Below, piece after piece: positions 2,677 to 8,482 of a DNA stretch of 37,464 nucleotides. The translations under genes were made by a program, and so were the position numbers. The notes under the pieces were generated by a model. That model did not search any database and was not told the DNA's origin. It saw nothing but the letters and a program-made list of their open reading frames with translations. Positions within the stretch are counted from its first letter, which is position 1. Each line of letters starts with the position of its first letter. The stretch comes from Candidatus Fibrimonadales bacterium (GTDB lineage: Bacteria; Fibrobacterota; Fibrobacteria; Fibrobacterales; Fibrobacteraceae), in the NCBI GenBank assembly GCA_009787645.1, contig WQSZ01000004.1:1-37464 (forward strand), in the 5' to 3' direction.

Positions 2677-4218
2677 TTACCTAACAGGCACCCTTAAAAT
2701 GCGTTTTTCGCTGCCAAACGACACTTTTACTATGTACATGCCTTTTGGCAAGTCATTTAACGGAATGGAATAGGTTCCGTTTGCGAAATTCACAGTTTTT
2801 TGCAATTTTCCGTGAATTGTGTAAATGTCAACACGAACATCGCCTTTAGCTTGCAGCTCCAAGCCGTTTTTTATAAGTGTCGGAGGCTGCTGCTGAATAT
2901 CCTTGGACATGTCTATGTTCCATTTATTGAGTTCATCCCCAAAGAATTTTACACGATCAGTCCACCATTTTTTCAACTTGTCTATTTCCGCATTATACTG
3001 AGTTATTGTAAGAGCAGTCACATTTGCATTTGAACATGTGGCTCCACTACCACAGCCCTGATAATTCTTAGTCGCCGAAGTTTTTATTGCGCCGGTCAGA
3101 GAGTCTATGAATGTTGGCATTTCAGTTGTAAAGACAGTTTTATATTTGTCCCATGTTTTTTTGAATTTGACCAAAAATACGGTGTCTGCCCAAAGCCTTT
3201 GGTAAAAAGCATGTCTCGGATTTATTTGGCCATTGCTCTTAGTGAAATGCGTATAAGTCATCACACCGTTAAATTCTCCTGTGGACAAGTCAAAATCCCA
3301 AAGAGGCCCTGCATGAATTCTCTGCCCAACATCCTTATACGCAAAGTTGGAGCCAGGCAAACCGCCTGATTGTGAATGGCTGTTGAAGTCGTGGTTATCC
3401 ATAAGTTGTTGTATCAATACGTATTTGGCAAAACTTTCCAAATCTATCAAGTTGCGGTAGCCGTTTTCAGGAAATGAATTTAAATACATGGAATCAACCA
3501 AACTGTTGAGATCATTTTTCACAAAACGATAACCTGTAGAATCCGGCAAATCCTCCGGAGATTTTATAAATGTGGTCAGATTATACCTGTTCGTGGTAAA
3601 ATAGTTCTGGCACTCATCCGATGCAGGGGAGTGAAAATCAAATTCCGCCAGCCAACCGGCTTTATTGTCTATGTCAACCCTGCCTGGATTGACTTGAATC
3701 TGTTCCGTAAACAGGTATATTCCCCTGTAAATATTGTTTATATATAGTTCTACGAATTGAAAAGTTGGTGTGTAAGCTAATCCCAAACGCTGACCTAGCG
3801 AAAAAGCCATCGCATTCAAAGTGGAAGTTTTATCATAGTGATTTGCCAACAGAACCCAACTCCTAGCAGCTTCTTTTCCAAAAACTGAGACTTTTTTATC
3901 AAACTTTATTCTGAAAGGTCTCTTTTCCACGGTTGCGGTAGAATTTCCACGTAACCTTATGGAGTCGGGCTGCGCACTTCTCGTTAGATTGTTTCCTTTC
4001 GGATCTGTCAACTTAAATTCTGTTATAGCAACATAATCAAATGCATAGATTTGTGTGAGCGATGGCATACCCCAACCCCAACCGCCGCCACTGTTGCTAT
4101 TGCAGCCATTGTCAGTCTTGTAACTCGGCATCTGGCTATCCTTCGTAGTTACCCTAATTTCGGGAATCTGCGCAAATGAAAGGACGCTTAGAAAAAACAC
4201 TGCGATTATTTGTTTCAT
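2677..4218 (-). CDS. CotH-like kinase family secreted protein with T9SS type A-like C-terminal sorting domain
   Basis: Signal peptide; RLRGNST, QQLMDNHDFNSHSQSGG..NFAYKDVG...AGPLWDFDLSTGE; C-terminal VDIYTIHGKLQKTV...LPKGMYIVKVSFGSEKRILRVPV. SD GGGAGG upstream. Confidence 0.85.
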   Translation of the reverse strand: MKQIIAVFFLSVLSFAQIPEIRVTTKDSQMPSYKTDNGCNSNSGGGWGWGMPSLTQIYAFDYVAITEFKLTDPKGNNLTRSAQPDSIRLRGNSTATVEKRPFRIKFDKKVSVFGKEAARSWVLLANHYDKTSTLNAMAFSLGQRLGLAYTPTFQFVELYINNIYRGIYLFTEQIQVNPGRVDIDNKAGWLAEFDFHSPASDECQNYFTTNRYNLTTFIKSPEDLPDSTGYRFVKNDLNSLVDSMYLNSFPENGYRNLIDLESFAKYVLIQQLMDNHDFNSHSQSGGLPGSNFAYKDVGQRIHAGPLWDFDLSTGEFNGVMTYTHFTKSNGQINPRHAFYQRLWADTVFLVKFKKTWDKYKTVFTTEMPTFIDSLTGAIKTSATKNYQGCGSGATCSNANVTALTITQYNAEIDKLKKWWTDRVKFFGDELNKWNIDMSKDIQQQPPTLIKNGLELQAKGDVRVDIYTIHGKLQKTVNFANGTYSIPLNDLPKGMYIVKVSFGSEKRILRVPVR

Positions 4219-4229
4219 AATTACCTCCC

Positions 4230-5243
4230 TTAAAAGATTACCACAACTTCGCTGTCAAAACGACGATGAGTTTGTTCGCTATCTCTATCAATTACTTTCA
4301 AACGTGTTCCATAAGTGTTTCGCCACTGAAATGCGGAATTCTTCGCAAAACCAAGTGTTATGCCTGCCCTCAGTTGAGCTTCAAAATTCTGGCTTCCCAT
4401 ATCTTCCATGTAAATTGCCGCCTCTGCAATGGGAATTACCTGCCGCAAACTCTTAAGCCCGGTCTCTATGGGAAAATATTCCTGCATCCTGGCTCCCAAA
4501 ATTAAAACATCCCTGTTTTCCCATTTTTTAACATCAAGATTATTGCCAAAAGTAAATTCTGTTTCGCTCACAAAAATCTTTGCCGTATATTTAAAGGAAA
4601 CAGAAGTTGCCCATGTGATTAAATCGTAATCCGAGGCTGTGAAATGCCCTATTATGCCGGCTAAAATCAAATTGGTATTTTGACTTTCGTATTCAACGCT
4701 GTAATTCTGAAGAAAAAGCTCCCGAACATCATCTGCCGGCCACGAAAAACCGCCTATCAAACGCCAGTTTTCATCGAGCTTATGGCGATACTGAATGGTT
4801 AAATCATGCTCTAAAAGCCTAAACGCCTCTAATCTATCGTTTATCACCGAGCGTTTATGAAAATAGCGTTCGTCAACTCCGGCCTTCTCCTCCAACCCAA
4901 AAGCCTTTTTCATATAACCCACACGCACACCGCCAAAATCCGCAAAGTTATATTGCCCAAAAAGCTTGTCTATCACCATTGCGCTGTCTCTGTCTTTGTA
5001 TTCAAAACCTAACTCCGCTCGAACTTTCTTTACAGGACGTGCGGAAATATTAATTTTTCCATAACCGATTTTATTGTATTCGGTTTCATCTTTATGCACT
5101 TTGTTATTTATATCAAAGCCAACTTCGAGAACACCCGACACTTTTATTTCATCTTCATTTTTTCCTTTCTTTTCCTTCTTTTCATCTTCCTGCGCAAAAA
5201 CAGAAACAAAAAACAATGCCAAAATTAAAGTACCGAGACGCAT
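4230..5243 (-). CDS. Outer-membrane porin, OprP/phosphate-selective porin-like
   Basis: Signal peptide, charged linker, alternating beta-barrel strands, FGLEEKAGVDERYFHKRSVINDRLEAFRLLEHDLTIQY segment, terminal ..VVVIF. Confidence 0.65.
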   Translation of the reverse strand: MRLGTLILALFFVSVFAQEDEKKEKKGKNEDEIKVSGVLEVGFDINNKVHKDETEYNKIGYGKINISARPVKKVRAELGFEYKDRDSAMVIDKLFGQYNFADFGGVRVGYMKKAFGLEEKAGVDERYFHKRSVINDRLEAFRLLEHDLTIQYRHKLDENWRLIGGFSWPADDVRELFLQNYSVEYESQNTNLILAGIIGHFTASDYDLITWATSVSFKYTAKIFVSETEFTFGNNLDVKKWENRDVLILGARMQEYFPIETGLKSLRQVIPIAEAAIYMEDMGSQNFEAQLRAGITLGFAKNSAFQWRNTYGTRLKVIDRDSEQTHRRFDSEVVVIF

Positions 5244-5245
5244 AT

Positions 5246-5842
5246 CTAGACCCTCTTATAAACCAGCTTAACCTCTGCGCTATCCGTTAAATAATTCATT
5301 TTTATCAACGCAACTTTAACAACTTCATAACCAAAACGATTTTTTATGTCATCGTAGAGTTCTTGCCTTTTTCCCTTTCCCAGCAATTTGGTATTATCGT
5401 ATAGCAAAACAACGGTGTCCACATTGCCCATAAATGCCTTTTCGCAAATAAACATGCTGCTGACCAGCAAAACGTCTGCCAAAAGAACCGCAAACAACGG
5501 AAGCTCCTCGGTGGCCAATGAATTCATAACACCGAGAATTATTGACGCAAACAGGAATGTCATTTCACGAATTTGTATTTGCTCGGTTCTATAACGCAAG
5601 ATTGAGAGAATTGCAAACAAGCCAAAGGCAAAACCGGTCTTCACTTTTACCGAAGCGAGAAGCGATGTAACCAAGAAAATCAAAACATTGGACATTATAA
5701 AGCTAAAGGAATATTCCCTTATGCGATGTTCCTTTGCATAAATGCCACAAATCAAGACATAAGCAAATATTATATTCATCACAAAGCGTGCGCCAAGCGA
5801 TGTTATAAAACTCCAATCATCCGGACCTATAAATACGTTCAT
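5246..5842 (-). CDS. DUF4956 family membrane protein
   Basis: Multiple TM helices, FGLFAILSILRYRTEQIQIREMTFLF signature; starts 4 bp inside the upstream VTC-like gene. Confidence 0.85.
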   Translation of the reverse strand: MNVFIGPDDWSFITSLGARFVMNIIFAYVLICGIYAKEHRIREYSFSFIMSNVLIFLVTSLLASVKVKTGFAFGLFAILSILRYRTEQIQIREMTFLFASIILGVMNSLATEELPLFAVLLADVLLVSSMFICEKAFMGNVDTVVLLYDNTKLLGKGKRQELYDDIKNRFGYEVVKVALIKMNYLTDSAEVKLVYKRV

Positions 5843-6630
5843 ACTGAACTCCTTTCATAAACTAATTTTTTTATTCTCGGCAAGAATCTGTTTTTCTTTA
5901 CATTCTCATGAGTTAATGCAATTCCAATTGCATATTTGGAAAAACCGGAGGGGTTTTTATGTATTCTGCGGAAAAATTCCTGAGAAACGGTTATGTCGGG
6001 GCTTCTCTCTCTTTTCAATTCTACTATTGCGGTGTTGCTCAGTTTAAATTCCTCATTGTTATAGCCGTATTTAACGCCAAAGTCAAGAGTCATTCTTTCG
6101 GGGAAGTGTTTGTTCAAAAGTGTTATGCGGTTAAAATAAACAAAGAGAGACGGGGCCAAATTTTCAACCTTGTATCCGTTGTTTTGCACCAAAGACAAAA
6201 AGCCGTTATCGAAATTCGCAAGATCTTCAAGTATGGGGATATTTGGTGCTTCTTCTCTGATTTTATCTCTGCGCTGGCGGAACTTAATTGTTTTTCCGGT
6301 ATTGAGCTTTTGCTTTATCTCGTTGAAAATTTTGCCGTTGCTCAAATATTTCCGAGTGCGGAACTTAAATCTGTTTGCCCGCTTGTTGTGATGCAGATTA
6401 AAGCAGAGCAATTCCGGTGTATCAAAATAAACCGTTCTGTAGCTTTGAATAACGCCATTGTTTATTTCAAGCAAGGAGTAGTCGTTTTGAATGTTTTTCA
6501 AAAAATCAAGAGCGGTATCAACTTTTAAAACAAACTTCGTATCAAACCTGTTCAAAAAAGACATAGCCTTGGATTCTTCAAGCGAAGAGCGTGAAAAAGC
6601 CTGCAAGTCATTTTGAAAAAGTTCAAACAT
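5839..6630 (-). CDS. VTC domain (polyphosphate polymerase-like, TTM fold) protein
   Basis: MFELFQND..., FDTKFVL, SYRTVYFDT, RFKFRTRKY, FNEIKQKLNTGKTIKFR, TLDFGVKY, AIVELKRERSPD, GFSKYAIGI: basic/acidic tunnel-type residues of TTM enzymes. TAATG coupling with the upstream gene. Confidence 0.85.
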   Translation of the reverse strand: MFELFQNDLQAFSRSSLEESKAMSFLNRFDTKFVLKVDTALDFLKNIQNDYSLLEINNGVIQSYRTVYFDTPELLCFNLHHNKRANRFKFRTRKYLSNGKIFNEIKQKLNTGKTIKFRQRRDKIREEAPNIPILEDLANFDNGFLSLVQNNGYKVENLAPSLFVYFNRITLLNKHFPERMTLDFGVKYGYNNEEFKLSNTAIVELKRERSPDITVSQEFFRRIHKNPSGFSKYAIGIALTHENVKKNRFLPRIKKLVYERSSV

Positions 6631-7937
6631 TATGAGCCTTCCCTGAGAGTCAGGAACTTTTTTATGTTTTCTATATTGGCACCACTGCAATCTATCGCTG
6701 ATTTTCTCCTTGAAGCCACAGTGCCACTGCCTCCGGTAACAGTTAAAGTGCCGGTTACTTTTATGCCGTCATCGTTAGCTTCAATATTGATATGACCGCC
6801 GATCATGGACATGTTTCCATCTATGTTTATTCCTTTTGACTTATCTCCTGTGCTTTTTATAGTCAAACTTCCACCTTCAATAGATAAATTTCCATCTGCC
6901 TTTATTCCTGCGGCATTGCTGGTAGTATCTTCCTTGGAGTCATCTATGTGCCTGCCACCGCTGGTATGTATATCTATAGTTCCACCTTCAATTTTCATAT
7001 CATTCTTTGACCTTATTCCCTTTGAGCCGTCGCCGGAAACATTCAGTTTAATTTCGGCATTCATACTTATGCTTGTGGAACCGGCACTTGCTATTCCGTG
7101 AGATTTTACGCCTTTAGTGTTAGCAGCAATTCTACCGCCGGAAACTTTAACATTCAAGCGCTCGCTTTGAATTGCATCACCTTTGCTGATAATGTTTATG
7201 GTTCCGCCTTCAACAATGATAGTGTCATTCGCATGAATGCCGTCTCTCTCAGCTTCCGGTATTGTTATGCACCCGTTTTGTATTTTAAAATAGCCGTCCG
7301 AAACTATCGCATGACTGGACTTTCCTTTTACTTCCAATAAGCCACCGCCTTGAAAAACAAGTGACCCTTCGCTGAAAAATGTCGCTTTTTTCGATGAATC
7401 CGGAGTCCAACCGAGCCCGTCTGACAGGCTATTTTCCCCTGCCAAATATACGGATATTCTTTTGCCGTTTTGAATATTGATAGCCGGACCTCTAGGGTTT
7501 GTTATGTTTACTTTGTTCAAATAAAGCCCTATTCTATGCGAACCGTCAATTTTAAGCGAACCGTTGGTTGTGGTTCCGCTTACAATAAAATTGTATTGCG
7601 TCTTTGCCTTTGGAGCATCTACAACCACATCTTCTCCATTTATAACGATTGTAACTGTATCGCTATTTGCAATGACTTTAACTGTATCGCCAGAGGCATT
7701 CTCAACTTTCTTGCCCTCGCTATTCTCTATTGTGGGAGCACTTCCGTTATTATATGTAATTCTAATGATGGAATCCACTTCCATGTCGGCGGTACCTGCT
7801 TTACCACATTCAAATTTAACATTCTCTATGCTACTGCTGCCGCTGCTGTTGCCATTACTCGGTGAATTTGGCGAATCACTGCTGCAGGAGGCGAAAAATG
7901 CTAAGAATGGGAGCGAGAATAGGAGTTTTAACTTCAT
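6630..7937 (-). CDS. Carbohydrate-binding (Cthe_2159/DUF4353-like) right-handed beta-helix lipoprotein
   Basis: Lipobox FFASC; repeated IEGGTIDI / IEGGSLTIKSTGDKSKGINIDGNMSMIGGHINIEANDDGIKVTGTLTVTGGSG beta-helix turns. Confidence 0.85.
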   Translation of the reverse strand: MKLKLLFSLPFLAFFASCSSDSPNSPSNGNSSGSSSIENVKFECGKAGTADMEVDSIIRITYNNGSAPTIENSEGKKVENASGDTVKVIANSDTVTIVINGEDVVVDAPKAKTQYNFIVSGTTTNGSLKIDGSHRIGLYLNKVNITNPRGPAINIQNGKRISVYLAGENSLSDGLGWTPDSSKKATFFSEGSLVFQGGGLLEVKGKSSHAIVSDGYFKIQNGCITIPEAERDGIHANDTIIVEGGTINIISKGDAIQSERLNVKVSGGRIAANTKGVKSHGIASAGSTSISMNAEIKLNVSGDGSKGIRSKNDMKIEGGTIDIHTSGGRHIDDSKEDTTSNAAGIKADGNLSIEGGSLTIKSTGDKSKGINIDGNMSMIGGHINIEANDDGIKVTGTLTVTGGSGTVASRRKSAIDCSGANIENIKKFLTLREGS

Positions 7938-7957: not shown

Positions 7958-7998
7958 TTTCGGCAAAATGTTACAAAAATGTTAAGATTTTGCCGAAA
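7958..7998. other. 12-bp perfect inverted repeat without a downstream U-tract on the gene strand
   Basis: TTTCGGCAAAAT (7958-7969) / ATTTTGCCGAAA (7987-7998); lspA stop codon lies in the loop. Confidence 0.6.
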
Positions 7999-8482
7999 CT
8001 TGCTTTTTAGCCCAATAAGAACCTATAAACAGCAGGCAAATTCCTATTGTGACCCAGGAATCGGCTAAATTGAAGGTTGGCCAGCGCTGAAAGATGAAGT
8101 CCGGGAAGTCCACATCTATAAAATCCACCACTTTGCCTATGCGCAAGCGGTCGCAGAAATTCCCCAGCGCTCCGGCGATTATCAAAACGATGCCGAGCCT
8201 TGACAGGTAGTCCTGTTTGTGCAATTCTCTGAAAAAATAAATAGCTCCTATGCAGGCTATGGCGGTTAAAATTCCAAAGAACAAAGTTGGCGAAAGCCAG
8301 GGTGCAAGGCTCTGCGGATTCATGGAAAAAGCAGCCCCCTCATTGTAAACAAGCGTAAATCTGAGCAAATCCCCGATAACAGGCATGCTCCAACCCAGCG
8401 TATGAGAGTCTGCCCAGAGCTTGGTAGCCTGATCCAGAAGCAATGCACCGGCAGCGATAGCTATGTAAATGGGGGTTTTCAT
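7982..8482 (-). CDS. lspA: Lipoprotein signal peptidase (signal peptidase II)
   Basis: DQATKLWADSH, VYNEGAAFS, ALGNFCDRLRIGKVVDFIDVDF, FNLADSWVTIG. Confidence 0.96.
   Translation of the reverse strand: MKTPIYIAIAAGALLLDQATKLWADSHTLGWSMPVIGDLLRFTLVYNEGAAFSMNPQSLAPWLSPTLFFGILTAIACIGAIYFFRELHKQDYLSRLGIVLIIAGALGNFCDRLRIGKVVDFIDVDFPDFIFQRWPTFNLADSWVTIGICLLFIGSYWAKKQVSAKS

Follow-up and report, generated by a model that had tools for sequence, protein, structure and literature searches.

A five-gene operon of Candidatus Fibrimonadales bacterium (contig WQSZ01000004.1; the whole stretch of DNA analyzed, 37,464 nucleotides, is termed the window) combines a VTC-domain polymerase-like protein, a DUF4956 membrane protein and a CotH-family secreted kinase with a porin and a beta-helix lipoprotein. 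In most other Fibrobacterota, among them Fibrobacter-type genera and many Chitinispirillia, the same core is paired with HlyD and a TolC-like protein, and this recurrence of unrelated outer-membrane conduits supports trans-envelope export of the VTC product more strongly than any other argument. The trio of VTC, DUF4956 and CotH was previously known, without a mechanism in the searchable (open-licence) literature. Since no paper in this literature was found to deal with the trio paired with outer-membrane conduits, nor with VTC paired with HlyD/TolC, its combination with outer-membrane exits of its own seems to be novel.

Organization of the operon

The genes are located on the minus strand and are read from position 7937 to 2677 in the following order: (i) a Cthe_2159-like beta-helix lipoprotein (6630..7937, 435 aa), (ii) a VTC-domain (TTM) polymerase-like protein (5839..6630, 263 aa), (iii) a DUF4956 membrane protein (5246..5842, 198 aa), (iv) a 16-strand porin (4230..5243, 337 aa), and (v) a secreted kinase of the CotH family that carries a T9SS sorting domain at its C-terminus (2677..4218, 513 aa). 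The Cthe_2159 stop and VTC start overlap in TAATG (6628-6632), the VTC stop and DUF4956 start in ATGA (5839-5842), and the two remaining spacers measure 2 bp (DUF4956/porin) and 11 bp (porin/CotH). The VTC gene starts with the ATG at 6630, the TTG at 6690 chosen by the ORF caller falling within the preceding Cthe_2159 gene. Reading of the sequence thus bore out all five genes, their coordinates and their tight junctions as given in the initial annotation, and its assignments to Cthe_2159 (PF14262, 8.8e-47), VTC (PF09359, 4.9e-25; 88.9 bits vs. a 23-bit cut-off), DUF4956 (PF16316, 7.6e-42) and CotH (PF08757, 2.4e-36; 126 bits) are all far over the Pfam cut-offs.

The gene for lipoprotein signal peptidase (lspA, 7982..8482, minus strand; TIGR00077 above cut-off) is located 44 bp upstream of the Cthe_2159 gene on the same strand, so that the transcript may start beyond Cthe_2159 with lspA as its first gene; lspA also adjoins the operon in three more genomes of the genus (L036, L041, L042). 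The promoter scan returned promoter-like sites near background (19 vs. 16.1 ± 3.5), and the terminator scan likewise remained at or near background. The product of an ORF at 1978-2643, 33 bp downstream of CotH, falls just under the DUF5610 cut-off; this gene was not found next to the operon in relatives.

Predicted properties of the encoded proteins

The VTC protein contains neither a signal nor a TM segment and is therefore predicted to be cytoplasmic. Its single sequence retrieved nothing useful from the PDB; a profile built from 37 VTC relatives found yeast Vtc4 at 2.2e-15. Matches 1-13 of the AF2 model (pLDDT 92) to PDB folds are all Vtc2, Vtc3 or Vtc4. Loss of tunnel residues, which the initial annotation had named as a point on which its interpretation could fail, was not observed, since every Vtc4 tunnel residue examined is kept: K32, R91, R93, E104, K106, K116 and R168 correspond to Vtc4 K200, R264, R266, E279, K281, K291 and R361, and R179, D183, E204, K206, S231 and K232 to Vtc4 R373, D377, E426, K428, S457 and K458. 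The basic tunnel residues and the equivalents of the metal-site Glu426 and of Lys458 are all aligned and identical. In yeast Vtc4, R264, R266 and E426 were changed in the triple mutant of the complex structure (PMC9911596), and K458 is termed catalytic (PMC4641920). TTM hydrolases carry an acidic patch at sites that are basic in Vtc4 (PMC4641920). Two of the four sites described there are basic as in Vtc4 (R28, K206), the equivalent of AtTTM3 Glu-4 is, unlike in Vtc4, acidic (Asp30), and the fourth is unaligned; these residues lean towards a polymerase without deciding the assignment.

Hydropathy of the DUF4956 protein indicates about 4-5 hydrophobic helices followed by a soluble C-terminal domain. 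R83 and R85 form the sole invariant columns across 35 divergent relatives and may parallel the basic TM-helix residues which line the polyphosphate channel of yeast VTC (PMC9911596). A DUF4956 profile search of the PDB yielded no solved relative; likeness to MgtC has been proposed (PMC12345266).

The porin carries a signal peptide, and its terminal Phe is present in all 19 aligned sequences. Its description as OprP-like stands with respect to fold, but not with respect to sequence membership in PF07396 (Porin_O_P; E 0.0068, 16.1 bits, under the 20.9-bit cut-off). The AF2 model (moderate pLDDT of 75.5) comprises 16 strands, of which strands 5 and 6 are joined by a long conserved loop predicted at the L3 constriction-loop position of classical porins. 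Foldseek matched it to OmpT, Omp32, OprO and OprP, the latter having the highest query-normalised TM-score among the matches listed (0.70), and a profile search of the PDB provided no sequence relative. The protein would thus share fold and constriction loop with the phosphate and polyphosphate porins OprP/OprO at about 10 % identity. With regard to the arginine ladder and anion selectivity of OprP/OprO, invariant basic and acidic residues were counted in the alignment and are about balanced. General 16-strand porins are normally passive channels, and a porin of this kind could act in uptake.

The sorting tail noted for CotH was confirmed by PF18962 (1.7e-6) and TIGR04183 (T9SS type A sorting domain; 30.3 bits vs. 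a 23-bit cut-off), and sorting via T9SS is plausible because the operon's own genome encodes SprA (SprA_N). K99, D277, D308 and D310 are kept in 31 of 31 aligned relatives; an equivalence to D228 and D251 of the catalytic site of Bacillus subtilis CotH (PMC7821199) is probable. In common with this spore-coat kinase, the protein has the CotH domain and the conserved Lys/Asp, but it is secreted with a T9SS tail, and CotB/CotG-like substrates were not identified. Searching the PDB with the single CotH sequence gave nothing useful. Relatives often possess two or three tandem CotH genes, some bearing CBM6. Contig C20 of the same genome (L072 1-4416) contains two tandem genes for LTD-CotH lipoprotein-like proteins.

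The Cthe_2159 protein has a short signal followed by Cys (FASC) and a linker rich in Ser/Asn/Gly, and matches 4peu/4phb in phmmer (2.8e-10). A lipoprotein-like N-terminus with Cys is also found in most of its relatives.

Distribution in Fibrobacterota and relation to Pel

When the porin profile was run against about 85,000 species genomes, it hit 21 loci, all in Fibrobacterota. VTC and DUF4956 are located immediately upstream of the porin in 18 of the 18 loci with enough flank, the remaining three being short contigs or a fragment, and the complete order Cthe_2159-VTC-DUF4956-porin-CotH recurs in other members of the genus as well as in f10, a family that belongs to a different class. Co-occurrence of the porin with its neighbours in relatives, on which the initial annotation had made its interpretation depend, is thereby established, and the order, being kept across genera and in two classes, reflects more than chance. 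CotH adjacency counts based on the CotH profile are understated, since LTD-CotH fusions downstream of the porin in L044, recognized by Pfam, were missed by this profile. In Fibrobacterales bacterium MS499-38 (L046 7957-9528), CotH is located between Cthe_2159 and VTC, not after the porin.

The nearest named relatives of the porin belong to 'Candidatus Fibrimonas' and Fibrimonadaceae assemblies, followed by Chitinispirillales. One of these records bears the name 'Candidatus Fibrimonas termitidis', and most of the other Fibrimonas/Fibrimonadaceae assemblies are presumably likewise derived from termite guts. In the VTC tree, the operon's genus groups with the Chitinispirillales genera g22 and g23 (support 96/95), and other genera of both families, which carry the second form, are placed far off; this points to a transfer of the cassette from one class to another, with the deep branches being long and uncertain.

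The second form has the order DUF4956-HlyD-TolC-VTC-LTD in 24 of the 24 second-form loci inspected. These loci include L054, L069-L071, L074 and L103-L121 and extend across Fibrobacterota families with or without CotH, which often precedes the operon. HlyD was confirmed by Pfam; the TolC-like protein matched Pfam OEP at 0.0015 in L054 and at 3.7e-25 in L162, with no match in L103. L162, from the phylum of G195, represents the second form outside Fibrobacterota. Neither an HlyD adaptor nor a TolC-like protein is encoded in the five-gene porin operon. Further VTC operons encode other outer-membrane proteins, namely a DUF2490 barrel in L048 and, in L067, a protein that passes the Porin_O_P cut-off. 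HlyD/TolC systems are exporters, and the association of one core with unrelated outer-membrane conduits supports export of the VTC product across the envelope. The earlier proposal of an envelope system that makes, exports or anchors a polyanion is partly supported, its export part being strengthened by the HlyD/TolC form. A thymidylate-kinase-like protein (PF02223) is encoded beside VTC/DUF4956 in G195-phylum genomes and in one Fibrobacterota genome (L067), the loci being L065, L067, L170, L171 and L172.

Among 201 genomes, 136 contain both VTC and CotH, 2 VTC alone, 11 CotH alone and 52 neither; VTC and DUF4956 co-occur in 134 and are discordant in 6 (4 with VTC only, 2 with DUF4956 only; 61 with neither), these genome-level counts being inflated by relatedness. 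A table of 74 genera, which lessens but does not remove this inflation, gives 29 with both VTC and CotH, 1 with VTC only, 5 with CotH only and 39 with neither (p about 2e-14). The statement of the initial annotation that these families co-occur in bacteria agrees with the literature (PMC7112168, PMC12345266, PMC2879425). PPK1 is ruled out as partner of CotH, as the two show no association by genus (16/12/18/28 in the same order; p 0.15). Equally ruled out is a strict dependence of secreted CotH on VTC, since three good-quality genomes (G143, G170, G184) encode secreted or lipoprotein-like CotH without VTC. B. subtilis, from the control set, has CotH without VTC; Corynebacterium glutamicum and Methanosarcina acetivorans carry all three families. 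The operon's own genome also encodes a PPK1-type polyphosphate kinase (G000:C179:2474-3007), so that VTC is not its sole route to polyphosphate; most Fibrobacter-type genomes searched (genus g2) contain VTC without a PPK1 match. In two unrelated genomes, Na/Pi cotransporter genes adjoin VTC (L045 4930-6723, L155 1870-3561).

The trio has been published as an accessory set of Pel, which in streptococci, clostridia and bifidobacteria adjoins pelDEADAFG (PMC7112168), and the three-gene arrangement was stated not to be found outside Pel loci (PMC12345266). This absence is contradicted for Fibrobacterota, where the trio is common outside Pel; it also occurs at loci of another phylum, the Pel search having covered the 201 genomes. 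PelG above cut-off was detected in 4 of these, none of which contains VTC or CotH, ruling out a linkage of the trio to Pel in Fibrobacterota. PelG was found neither in the operon's own genome (62 % complete) nor in the 11 others of the genus, and no pel genes are located beside the five-gene operon. With the Pel cassette of CotH, poly-P polymerase and DUF4956 (PMC7112168; SIR_1592-1594, PMC12345266) the operon shares the families, their adjacency and a secreted CotH; it differs by the lack of pel, by the additional porin, T9SS tail and beta-helix lipoprotein, and by its occurrence in a two-membrane bacterium. A role of the trio as accessory set for a Pel-like or other exopolysaccharide, regulating or modifying a secreted glycan with polyphosphate being incidental, is considered unlikely. 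It would agree with the published pel neighbourhoods, with the altered amount of Pel upon deletion of DUF4956 or CotH in Streptococcus intermedius (PMC12345266), with the carbohydrate-binding nature of the beta-helix family and with CBM6 on some CotH relatives, but it is opposed by the PelG distribution and by the fact that no glycan synthase was seen within either operon form.

A possible export route for polyphosphate

Our tentatively preferred reading, possible though somewhat short of probable, is that VTC makes polyphosphate, DUF4956 together with the porin or HlyD/TolC exports it, and CotH phosphorylates surface components. The cytosolic VTC protein would form polyphosphate from ATP, and DUF4956, as inner-membrane partner replacing the yeast Vtc1/Vtc3 channel, would pass the chain to the periplasm. 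Exit across the outer membrane would be provided by the porin, and by HlyD plus the TolC-like protein in most relatives. T9SS-sorted CotH may then phosphorylate envelope or matrix components at the cell surface, and the beta-helix lipoprotein may bind or organise the resulting anionic material. Gene order, family assignments, tunnel residues, folds and the association with two unrelated outer-membrane conduits are observed, and what we infer is polyphosphate as product, its outward direction, the translocator role of DUF4956, and the substrate and donor of the kinase. The yeast VTC complex (Vtc4/Vtc3/Vtc1; PMC9911596) likewise combines a TTM-fold polymerase, having the same tunnel residues, with a membrane protein; in contrast, the operon lacks an SPX domain and a Vtc1-type subunit (Pfam scan), has DUF4956 as partner and would act at the envelope rather than the vacuole. 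VTC and CotH genes are also found together in NELoc-2 of Clostridium perfringens (PMC2879425), a Gram-positive cluster with other neighbours.

Several observations speak against this reading: Asp30 in VTC, the normally passive nature of general 16-strand porins, the balanced charges of the porin's invariant residues, secreted or lipoprotein-like CotH in three genomes devoid of VTC, and the presence of PPK1 in the operon's own genome. Moreover, in S. intermedius neither aggregation nor Pel was reported to change upon deletion of VTC, whereas deletion of DUF4956 or CotH had an effect (PMC12345266), so that the trio does not act as one pathway there under the tested conditions.

Phosphate uptake or homeostasis, with the porin importing phosphate or polyphosphate, VTC storing it and an MgtC-like DUF4956 acting as regulator, is regarded as quite unlikely. 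The nearest porin folds include OprP and OprO, VTC adjoins Na/Pi cotransporters in L045 and L155, and the proposed MgtC likeness (PMC12345266) would fit; but the same core occurs with the export architecture HlyD/TolC in relatives, and the surface CotH, LTD and beta-helix proteins would be left without a role.

Exported polyphosphate could, in addition, serve CotH as phosphoryl donor, an attractive idea because ATP is not available extracellularly. By genus, CotH indeed follows VTC and not PPK1, and other bacteria and archaea are in agreement: C. glutamicum and M. acetivorans carry all three families, and in B. subtilis, which has no VTC, the targets of CotH are spore-coat proteins whose assembly takes place in the ATP-containing mother cell. 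Such a donor function is nonetheless improbable, given secreted CotH without VTC in G143, G170 and G184, the S. intermedius VTC mutant without the phenotype of the CotH mutant (PMC12345266), and the use of ATP as donor in CotH assays (PMC7821199). That polyphosphate exported via VTC, DUF4956 and a conduit powers extracellular phosphorylation of proteins or glycans by surface CotH, where ATP is lacking, is very doubtful.

With respect to polyphosphate export itself, the two unrelated conduits allow a specific model open to testing to be drawn up for what were "unknown phosphate genes". The supposed dependence of the trio on Pel is removed, and Gram-negative relatives carrying it, the Fibrobacter-type genera, are identified. 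If the model is true, bacteria possess a route dedicated to bringing polyphosphate to their surface, and possibly an energy source for secreted kinases.
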